Origin: a virus
Strand: one strand, 5' to 3'
IMG/VR virus record: IMGVR_UViG_3300048798_000032
Span: 39,429 to 103,428 of that record
Length of the DNA stretch: 64,000 nucleotides
Below the pieces are notes generated by a model that was not told the DNA's origin, ran no database searches, and worked only from the letters and a program-made list of their open reading frames with translations. A program made the translations under genes and the position numbers. Below, one piece after another: positions 55,720-58,369 of the stretch (position 1 is the first letter of the stretch; every line of letters starts with the position of its first letter).

Positions 55720-56084
55720 AGTACACCCGGTGCCCCGGTGAACGGGGACTGGAAAGCACCCGGTGTGCCGGACACCTCCCACGTCTCCTCGTTGATCACG
55801 ACCAAATCCGTCAGCCCTATCTGGGTACCGGGGGGGAAGAACGCGGTGTACCCGGCCGAGACGATGTACTGACCCGACCGGGATTCAGCGAACGAGGACG
55901 CACGGGTGGCACGGGGTGCGAGCTTCAGCATCAGCGGCTCGAGCACCGCGTTGACGACGGTGGTGGCTATCGTGCCGTAAATGTCGTTGCCGAGGGCGTC
56001 GGTCCCGGTGACGCCCTGGGTCAGGATGGTGACCGGTGTCCCACCGGGCCAGTCGGAGGTCAGCGCGACACTGCTGCTCACCAT
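55689..56084 (-). CDS. head closure / neck protein
   Basis: This 131-aa protein includes TPVTILTQGVTGTDALGNDI and a beta-rich end (DLVVINEETWEVSGTPGAFQ), as in head-completion proteins. The start now reads ATG GTG AGC. The GTG (56081) may be the original start, since the ATG and its GGAGG ribosome site lie in the inserted TnpB element. Confidence 0.62.
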   Translation of the reverse strand: MVSSSVALTSDWPGGTPVTILTQGVTGTDALGNDIYGTIATTVVNAVLEPLMLKLAPRATRASSFAESRSGQYIVSAGYTAFFPPGTQIGLTDLVVINEETWEVSGTPGAFQSPFTGAPGVLQVELLKITG

Positions 56085-56182
56085 GACCTCCGGAGGATGC
56101 CCCGCCGTTCACGGCGGGGAGGAATCCGGTGCCGTGCTCCGCGCGGCACATGTCTTACGGTCATGTCGGATATCCTGTAAGC

Positions 56183-57412
56183 ATGAGGACGGCGTATAAG
56201 TGCCGGGCGTATCCCGGCGAGGCGCAGCAGCAGATGCTTGCGCGTACGTTCGGCTGCGTCCGCGTCGTCTGGAACCGCACCCTGGCTGACCGGCACCGGC
56301 TGTACCACGCTGAGGGCAAGAGCCTGACCTACGCCGCGTCCGATGCGGCGCTGACCGTCATGAAGAAAGACCCGGACCTCGCCTGGCTCAACGAGGTGTC
56401 TTCGGTCCCGCTTCAGCAGGCGCTGCGGCATCAGTACAAGGCGTTCAGTAACTTCTTCGCCAAGCGCGCCCGCTACCCGCGTTTCAAGTCCCGACAGTCT
56501 CGCCAGTCGGCCACCTACACCCGGTCGGCGTTCCGCATGAAGGACGGCGCGCTGTTGCTGGCCAAGATGGATGAGCCGCTCCCGTTCGTCTGGTCGTGGC
56601 CGGATGTGGACGTGACCAGCCTCGACCCGACGACGGTGACGGTTTCCCGCGATCCGTGCGGGCGCTGGTACGTCTCGTTCGCCGTTGACGTACCCGATCC
56701 GGCGCAGTTCCCGGCCACCGGAGCCGTCGTGGGCGTTGACCTGGGCATCAAGGACTTCGCCGTGACCTCGGACGGGGAGAAGATCGCCAACCCGCGGCAC
56801 CTGGCCAAGCGGGAACGTAACCTTGCCCGCTACCAGCGCAGGCTCGCCCGCTGCCAGCGCGGCTCCGCGAACCGGGCCAAGGCGAAAGCTAAGGTTGCCC
56901 GCGCCCACCGGAAAGTCCGCGCGTCCCGGGCCGACTTCCTGCACCGCACATCTGCCCGGCTCGTCCGCGACCACGACGTGATCGTGCTGGAAGACCTGGC
57001 CGTCCGCAACATGGTCCGCTGCCGGTCGCTGGCTAAGGCCATCTCCGACTGCGGCTGGGGCGAGTTCCGGCGTCAACTGGAGTACAAGGCGGAACGCCAT
57101 GGTCGGCATGTCATCGTGATCGACCGCTGGTTCCCGTCCAGCAAGACCTGCTCGGCCTGCGGGCACCTGCTCGCCGGGTTGAGCCTGAAGACGAGGCACT
57201 GGACGTGCCCCGCCTGCGGCACCCTGCACGACAGGGACGTTAACGCCGCGAAGAACATAGCTGCGGCTGGTCGAGCCGTAGCCGGGAGCGATCCCGGCGA
57301 TGCCTGCGGAGCTGGTGTCAGACACGGCGGGGCAACCCCCGTGCAGTCGGCTGTGAAACAGGAACCCCGGCGGGTGACCGCTGGAATCCCCGTCCTTCAG
57401 GGCGGGGAGTAG
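56183..57412 (+). CDS. tnpB: TnpB RNA-guided nuclease
   Basis: This 409-aa protein starts MRTAYKCRAYPGEAQQQMLA at ATG 56183. The RuvC-like residues are present: Asp 186 (GVDLGIKDFAVTSDG), Glu 270 (IVLEDLAVRNM) and Asp 352 (CPACGTLHDRDVNAAKNI), with the zinc ribbon CSACG...CPACG. TnpB cuts DNA guided by an RNA made from the element's right end. All catalytic residues are intact. No TnpA gene is nearby. Confidence 0.9.
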   Translation: MRTAYKCRAYPGEAQQQMLARTFGCVRVVWNRTLADRHRLYHAEGKSLTYAASDAALTVMKKDPDLAWLNEVSSVPLQQALRHQYKAFSNFFAKRARYPRFKSRQSRQSATYTRSAFRMKDGALLLAKMDEPLPFVWSWPDVDVTSLDPTTVTVSRDPCGRWYVSFAVDVPDPAQFPATGAVVGVDLGIKDFAVTSDGEKIANPRHLAKRERNLARYQRRLARCQRGSANRAKAKAKVARAHRKVRASRADFLHRTSARLVRDHDVIVLEDLAVRNMVRCRSLAKAISDCGWGEFRRQLEYKAERHGRHVIVIDRWFPSSKTCSACGHLLAGLSLKTRHWTCPACGTLHDRDVNAAKNIAAAGRAVAGSDPGDACGAGVRHGGATPVQSAVKQEPRRVTAGIPVLQGGE

Positions 57413-57416
57413 TCAA
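57290..57416 (+). ncRNA. predicted right-end guide RNA (omega RNA) scaffold
   Basis: The end of tnpB and the right end fold into stem-loops: CCGGCGG-GTGA-CCGCTGG and CCCCGTCC-TTCA-GGGCGGGG. In this family the guide RNA covers the 3' end of tnpB and the right end, and the guide is the flanking DNA. The predicted 20-nt guide would be 57417-57436, inside the glycosyltransferase gene end. The left boundary is only approximate. Confidence 0.5.
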
Positions 57417-58369
57417 GGCACCAGTGCCTCCACGGCCTCACACCACTGCTTCAGCTCCCCAGCGGGGTCCAGTTCCGCGAACCGGTCCCGTCCCGCCGCG
57501 GACGCCTTCTGCCACGCCGCAGGCTTGGCCAGCCGCCGGATCTGCCGTACCCACGACTGCGGGTCGTCCCGGTCAGCCCAGACCGCCGCATCCCCCAGGT
57601 TCTCCGCGAGTGCCCCTTCGGCGCGGTGGGCGATGACCGGGATACCTGAGCACATCGCCTCGGTGGCCACCCGGCCCCACGACTCGTAGTCCGAGGGGAC
57701 CAGCAGGATCCGGGTCCGCGCGTACACCTCGTCCCGCATCCGCCGGCCGTCCACCTGATCCAGCACCGTCACGTTCGGCAGCCCGTCAGGACCGGTAACC
57801 TGTTCCCCATAGGCACCCTGGACGCCGAGGAACTCCACATCCGGCATCGCGCGGGCAAGCTGCCAGAACAGTTCCCCGCCTTTGCAGCCGGCCATGTTGA
57901 TGAGGGTCACCGCTGTGCCCGGCTCCGTCCGGTAGGCCACGGGGTCCACCGGGGGACGCACGGTCACCGACGCGCCCGGCGGCGTGATGCGCCCGGCCAT
58001 CCATGCGCTGTTGAGCACGGTCAGTGCCGGGCTGGCGGCCTCCAGTTCGGCGACCGCCCGCAGGAGCGTGTTGTGCTGCACGACGATCAGCGGCACCCCG
58101 TAACCCCGCGCCGACGCGGCGACAGGAGGCACGTTCTCCAGGTGCGTCACGTATGCATCTGGCCTGGGGAGCACGTTCCAGGTGCCGGGGGGCAGCACGC
58201 AGATCCCGTCGATCACCCACGGGTGCATCCCGGTCGCGGGGACCTGCGTCAGGTGCACCTCCACCATGTGACCCCGGTCGCTGAGGGCACTAAGGAGGGG
58301 AAGGAGAAACCATTCCGCGCCTGCATTATGCGCTGGCGGGAATCCATGCACGCGGGCTACAATTCGCAT
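57413..58369 (-). CDS. glycosyltransferase, GT4-like, in the late operon
   Basis: This 318-aa GT-B protein has the N-terminal RIVARVHGFPPAHNAGAEWF and the donor-binding region LLVPSDYESWGRVATEAMCS, GIPVIAHRAEGALAENLGDA. It likely transfers a sugar to a virion protein or host surface. The ATG overlaps the adaptor gene's stop (TAATG), so it is part of the operon. Its stop codon is supplied by the right end of the TnpB element. Confidence 0.8.
   Translation of the reverse strand: MRIVARVHGFPPAHNAGAEWFLLPLLSALSDRGHMVEVHLTQVPATGMHPWVIDGICVLPPGTWNVLPRPDAYVTHLENVPPVAASARGYGVPLIVVQHNTLLRAVAELEAASPALTVLNSAWMAGRITPPGASVTVRPPVDPVAYRTEPGTAVTLINMAGCKGGELFWQLARAMPDVEFLGVQGAYGEQVTGPDGLPNVTVLDQVDGRRMRDEVYARTRILLVPSDYESWGRVATEAMCSGIPVIAHRAEGALAENLGDAAVWADRDDPQSWVRQIRRLAKPAAWQKASAAGRDRFAELDPAGELKQWCEAVEALVP

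Follow-up and report, generated by a model that had tools for sequence, protein, structure and literature searches.

How can a transposon settle between two adjoining phage genes and leave both of them readable? This question is raised by a 64,000-nt stretch of viral DNA (hereafter the window), which is part of a 103-kb virus record (IMG/VR IMGVR_UViG_3300048798_000032, positions 39,429 to 103,428). Here, a transposon that we term element E lies between a glycosyltransferase gene and a head-closure gene, both on the minus strand (Table 1). Judging from the sequences compared below, we consider it likely that the insertion geometry of Y1 transposases, combined with a ribosome-binding site directed outward from the element, makes such operon insertions translationally near-silent.

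The junction occupied by element E

The first-pass annotation of this locus had claimed that a TnpB element is inserted exactly at a GTGA gene overlap, with its right end rebuilding a stop codon. Direct reading of the sequence bears this out: removal of E joins TCAC to GGCACC, the latter being the right flank from 57417 onward of a terminus that reads ...GGGGAGTAG TCAA. On the minus strand the joined flanks give ...GAG GCA CTG GTG CCG TGA, overlapped by GTG AGC AGC AGT, such that the GTG start of the head-closure gene shares GTGA with the TGA stop of the glycosyltransferase. With E in place the latter ends in ...GTG CCT TGA, and the terminal Pro-stop is preserved. Overlaps of this kind had been called the usual arrangement in this genome; they are frequent, although the part of the module examined, with two 4-nt overlaps (ATGA, TTGA) and one of 1 nt, shows that they are not universal. 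The downstream gene, labeled a neck gene, matches head closure Hc1 (phrog_501, E-value 1e-10). E was also said to furnish this gene with an ATG and a GGAGG. Both are present, but the in-frame ATG (56084-56082) is merely 2 nt from the GGAGG, making the native GTG, at 5 nt, the better start. The anti-Shine-Dalgarno (anti-SD) duplex computed for the head-closure start is -10.2 kcal/mol with E as against -5.6 kcal/mol for the displaced native sequence.

The anatomy of E is that of a tnpB-only IS200/IS605 element. Its TnpB combines a RuvC-type nuclease with a TNB zinc ribbon, is homologous to the ISDra2 TnpB (E-value 3e-72; PDB 8bf8) and by alignment keeps the acidic residues of the GVDLG, LEDL and HDRDVNAA motifs, which are the RuvC catalytic residues lost in TldR proteins. 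Subterminal sequences at both ends fold into hairpins as single-stranded DNA (see the folding z-scores in Table 1), and the element stands 3' of a fixed tetranucleotide, lacks a target duplication and ends in TCAA. No IscB protein with an HNH domain, as in HEARO/IscB elements, is encoded in E. The group I intron that would mark an IStron is likewise missing: an Rfam scan of 55900-62300 returned sub-threshold matches only and no intron family, group I included. No Y1 tnpA gene was seen within E, and two Y1 genes are found elsewhere in the phage; E was thus presumably mobilized in trans.

A tnpB-less relative, element F, repeats the stop swap. Both elements are absent from two relatives, a 5-kb contig with the gene order of the phage (L011) and a 100-kb relative (L407). 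At the place of F, L011 reads GCC GCG TAA, exactly as predicted by removing F, while the homologous gene in L407 ends in GCC GCC TGA. At the place of E, the glycosyltransferase of L011 ends in CGG TGA, and in both relatives its end forms a GTGA overlapping the next gene; the head-closure gene of L407 starts with GTG AGC, matching the left flank of E. Both halves of the junction are therefore native in relatives, and their direct overlap would have formed the target of E.

Table 1. Features of the E and F loci, in window coordinates
Feature	Position	Strand	Remarks
Head-closure (Hc1-like) gene	55689..56081	-	native GTG start at 56081, the same start as in L407
TCAC	56078..56081	+	target / left cleavage site (CL), presumed transposon-associated motif (TAM); GTGA on the minus strand
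Element E	56082..57416	+	tnpB-only IS200/IS605-type (IS1341-like) transposon, 1335 nt
GGAGG (Shine-Dalgarno) in left end of E	56087..56091	-	5 nt upstream of the native head-closure GTG
Left-end hairpin, CCCCGCCG-TTCA-CGGCGGGG	56100..56119	+	z -2.96
tnpB	56183..57412	+	409 aa; HTH_OrfB_IS605, OrfB_IS605 and Cas12f1-like_TNB domains
Right-end hairpin	57387..57408	+	z -3.24
TCAA, right cleavage site (CR)	57413..57416	+	TTGA on the minus strand: new glycosyltransferase stop plus third base of its last codon
Glycosyltransferase gene	57413..58369	-	stop codon now from TCAA of E; native end in L407 GCG CCG TGA
Presumed omega-RNA guide	57417..57436	+	end of the glycosyltransferase coding region; position deduced from ISDra2 TnpB (PMC8612924)
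TTAC, target of F	61954..61957	+	GTAA on the minus strand, with native stop TAA
Element F	61958..62056	+	99 nt, tnpB-less, hairpins at both ends, ends in TCAA (62053-62056)
Gene with stop supplied by F	62053..62562	-	now GCT TGA; native GCG TAA in L011

Six right ends of this kind occur in the 103-kb record, and two belong to elements that carry a Y1 tnpA along with tnpB; apart from those of E and F, the remaining four do not coincide with the stop codon of a long gene. These four lie in the portion C1:1-39500 of the record (L009 and L010), a high load for one phage: elements with tnpA and tnpB are located near C1:14440-16121 and C1:28274-30005, and tnpB-less remnants end near C1:4733 and 19306. 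The presumed guide of E mismatches the glycosyltransferase ends of L407 and L011 at several positions, and the TnpB of E would thus probably not cut them. Elsewhere in the window, a NUMOD4/HNH_3 homing-endonuclease-like gene (59499-60089, plus strand) lies next to the gene for the major head protein but runs against the orientation of the structural genes; neither L011 nor L407 has a counterpart.

Overlap sites and left ends across the family

Is the arrangement at E a general property of its relatives? A right-end pattern scan yielded 93 viral and 77 genomic right ends, of which 15 and 4, respectively, supply the stop of an opposite-strand open reading frame (ORF) of at least 60 aa; by comparison, about 2.1% of TYAC sites in viral loci and about 1.5% in genomic loci are stops of called genes. 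In the corresponding left-end scan the target proved to be almost always TCAT and sometimes TCAC, mostly followed by C, with TCAY preceding the left end in 70/79 cases of the first set and 77/79 of the second. The complements of these targets are ATGA and GTGA. We scored an element as lying at an overlap when the opposite strand has one open frame ending at it and another starting at the retained RTG, each 100 codons or longer. By this measure, 12 of the 32 TCAY elements with both ends located in the first sample occupy open stop/start overlaps, as against 2.8% of 2646 random TCAY sites on the same contigs, the null being all TCAY sites and not just gene-sparing ones (p = 7e-11). The result was replicated in 80 stretches from 200 Streptosporangiales genomes (22/60 elements with both ends versus 5.3% of random TCAY sites; p = 6e-13), where start retention was also enriched by itself, 56/77 elements keeping an open frame of 100 or more codons from the RTG versus 41% (p = 4e-8). 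The stop swap at E therefore exceeds chance: element F does likewise, and the odds of lying at an overlap are raised about 10- to 20-fold in the two samples. As to method, greedy longest-ORF calls misplace starts in G+C-rich DNA (the L275 insertion appeared "interior" though it lies between hisS and aspS), and matched open-frame tests were used instead; the first hairpin rule failed to locate the left ends of many tnpB elements.

The change in the last codon of the upstream gene from NNR to NNT is synonymous in 13/14 cases, that codon being four-fold degenerate in 13/14 versus 57% in the null (p = 0.008). On the downstream side, a left end was scored as bearing an SD when, on the strand coding for the downstream gene, it pairs with the anti-SD at an energy of -5.5 kcal/mol or lower. 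Such an SD is present in 23/51 left-end lineages of the first set (shuffles, 7.1 +/- 2.1; other strand, 2/51) and in 14/23 of the replication set (shuffles, 3.7 +/- 1.6; other strand, 2/23), or 55/77 elements there, while 15% of random TCAY sites satisfy the same threshold. The spacing between motif and start codon is in most cases 5-8 nt, and at most of the twelve overlap sites the motif is stronger than the native sequence that it displaces, being slightly weaker at L109.

The operons entered in this way include pairs that Pfam identifies on the two sides of the element: histidyl- and aspartyl-tRNA synthetase (L275), pyruvate formate-lyase and a radical SAM protein (L298), two FecCD permeases (L336), and DUF1833 and NlpC/P60 (L210). 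For three of these, relatives provide natural empty sites. At hisS-aspS of Sphaerisporangium, the flanks of L275, joined at ^, read ...AAACTGACCAC^ATGATCCGC versus ...CTGACCACATGATCCGC in L416 and L414; at the pyruvate formate-lyase/activase pair, CACGGATCGTT^GTGAACACC in L298 compares with CACGGGTCGCTGTGAACACG in L438; and at FecCD, AAGCTGGTGAGCCT^GTGACC in L336 compares with AAGCTGGTGAGCGTATGACG in L427.

These data suggest the following course of events. A Y1 transposase, presumably acting in trans in the case of E, would insert the single-stranded DNA of the element 3' of TCAT or TCAC, whose other strand, ATGA or GTGA, is a common stop/start overlap of operon genes. The ATGA or GTGA would be kept by the downstream gene, whereas the CR sequence TCAA would be placed beside the upstream gene, where it reads TTGA and restores a stop at the old position, with a last-codon change that in most cases is synonymous. 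For the downstream gene, the coding-strand SD in the left end of the element would stand in for the ribosome-binding region that has been displaced. Stop swap, start retention and left-end SD together would make overlap insertions translationally near-silent and let them persist even where the neighboring genes are essential. Support for regarding insertion into a GTGA overlap as almost harmless, in terms of reading frames and signals, thus comes from E, from F with its empty site in L011, and from the family pattern with its three further empty sites.

Two other observations concern the element ends. In L159 (3166-3280) two right-end sequences follow one another in tandem at a spacing of about 80 nt, and both end in GTCAA. 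The Rhodococcus rhodnii and Kibdelosporangium records L262 and L274 have a left flank in common and left ends that are almost identical (TGATGGCACCGATCGATCTGACCATCAT), a likeness that suggests transfer of the region.

Alternative accounts of the overlap insertions

Several points weigh against near-silent insertion as just outlined. At E itself, the comparison with phages lacking the element recovered the empty site of F and the native gene ends flanking E, but not the exact empty site of E, in which the glycosyltransferase directly overlaps the head-closure gene, in L407 or L011: the glycosyltransferase is followed by a methyltransferase-like gene in the former and by another gene in the latter. 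Across the family, fewer than half of the elements lie at overlaps, and the open-frame criteria are lenient in G+C-rich DNA, for which reason the matched null was used. In the first set no SD is present in about half of the left-end lineages, among them L179, L210 and L384, which stand at overlaps; where there is an SD, many left ends have it within a CCTC(C)GGAGG palindrome whose role could instead lie with the transposase.

The first of these points opens the possibility that E entered where the glycosyltransferase overlapped a third gene or, instead, at the start of the head-closure gene; recombination between junctions containing GTGA would then have removed that third gene. The genes found directly after the glycosyltransferase in L407 and L011 speak for such a history, as does the native presence of both halves of the junction in L407; nevertheless, the present joint of E fits a direct overlap to the base, and relatives carry differing accessory genes here, making ancestral absence of a third gene equally possible. 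We regard this history as rather unlikely. The place in question (L407:7592-8203; L011:4987-5042) holds different genes, each entered via a GTGA overlap. A search of viral contigs with the head-closure protein found no relative, and phage records searched with the region of E gave distant matches only.

Another account joins ordinary IS605 geometry to purifying selection: CL and CR would share T-Y-A by mechanism, insertions elsewhere would have been lost, and the GGAGG of the left end would belong to the transposase-binding structure and play no part in translation. Similarity of CL and CR is documented for IS608, with CL TTAC and CR TCAA (PMC5934647), and it follows from this known family biology that TGA from CR always takes the place of a stop whose complement is formed by the first three bases of CL. 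In the right-end survey, phages show no more than a modest rise in the share of gene-sparing sites that coincide with a stop, chromosomes show none, and CCTCCGGAGG-like palindromes recur in many left ends. On the other hand, other left ends have an SD without the palindrome (AAGGAG; CTCAAGGAGATTTG, GAAGGAGAATCG), its flanking bases vary, its distance from the start peaks at 5-8 nt on the coding strand, and start retention is enriched alone. This account is the strongest competitor, though we hold it to be the less probable one. The SD may have been selected for translation or may have arisen as a side effect of transposase-binding structure; likewise, the overlap excess, measured against all TCAY sites, probably reflects selection rather than target preference, though selection may not be its sole cause.

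Finally, elements at overlaps might be kept not for their silence but as operon regulators, for example through TnpB or omega-RNA acting on the flanking gene or through altered translational coupling. The presumed guide does match the 3' end of the upstream gene, and TnpB derivatives can reportedly turn into RNA-guided regulators, as with TldR. However, the RuvC motifs are kept in the TnpB of E, the sites are diverse and unrelated, and the same genes occur without the element in relatives, as expected for scattered insertions; regulation thus appears very improbable.

Known systems and biological meaning

Several features of E are shared with known systems. Like IS608 (PMC5934647), its family inserts 3' of a tetranucleotide without target duplication, has hairpins at its ends and a CR of TCAA, and prefers C after the cleavage site; it differs in its target, TCAT/TCAC rather than TTAC, and E lacks the tnpA of IS608. 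For IS608 we found no published mention of insertions at stop/start overlaps or of an outward SD. ISDra2 has a homologous TnpB (PMC8612924), and its right-end oligonucleotide also contains TTCAA (PMC2806898), but its target/TAM, TTGAT, is not the complement of a stop/start overlap. IStrons (PMC4227781) are likewise IS605-type elements rendered harmless to genes, in their case by group I intron splicing, whereas E relies on stop and start signals.

HEARO/IscB elements (Weinberg 2009) are reported to insert beside ATGA or GTGA; they differ in having IscB with HNH and a different RNA. The papers searched contained no report of a preference for stop codons or overlaps, nor any of an outward SD, although the HEARO precedent may mean that part of this was known before. 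E is a member of a known family, and the outward SD is the new element. On balance we lean toward seeing here a widespread TnpB family with operon-adapted ends, in which the target is the complement of RTGA, the right end a portable stop and the left end an outward portable ribosome-binding site, and which may enter between translationally overlapping genes and leave both active, also when these are essential.

If this is correct, the abundance of RNA-guided TnpB elements in phages and operons packed with genes would have an explanation, since their insertions would cost little, and the motif that they target would be linked directly to the way genes are arranged. A simple rule for locating such insertions and their empty sites also follows. 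Moreover, the family would be a natural case of a mobile element bearing translation signals for the operon of its host rather than for its own genes.
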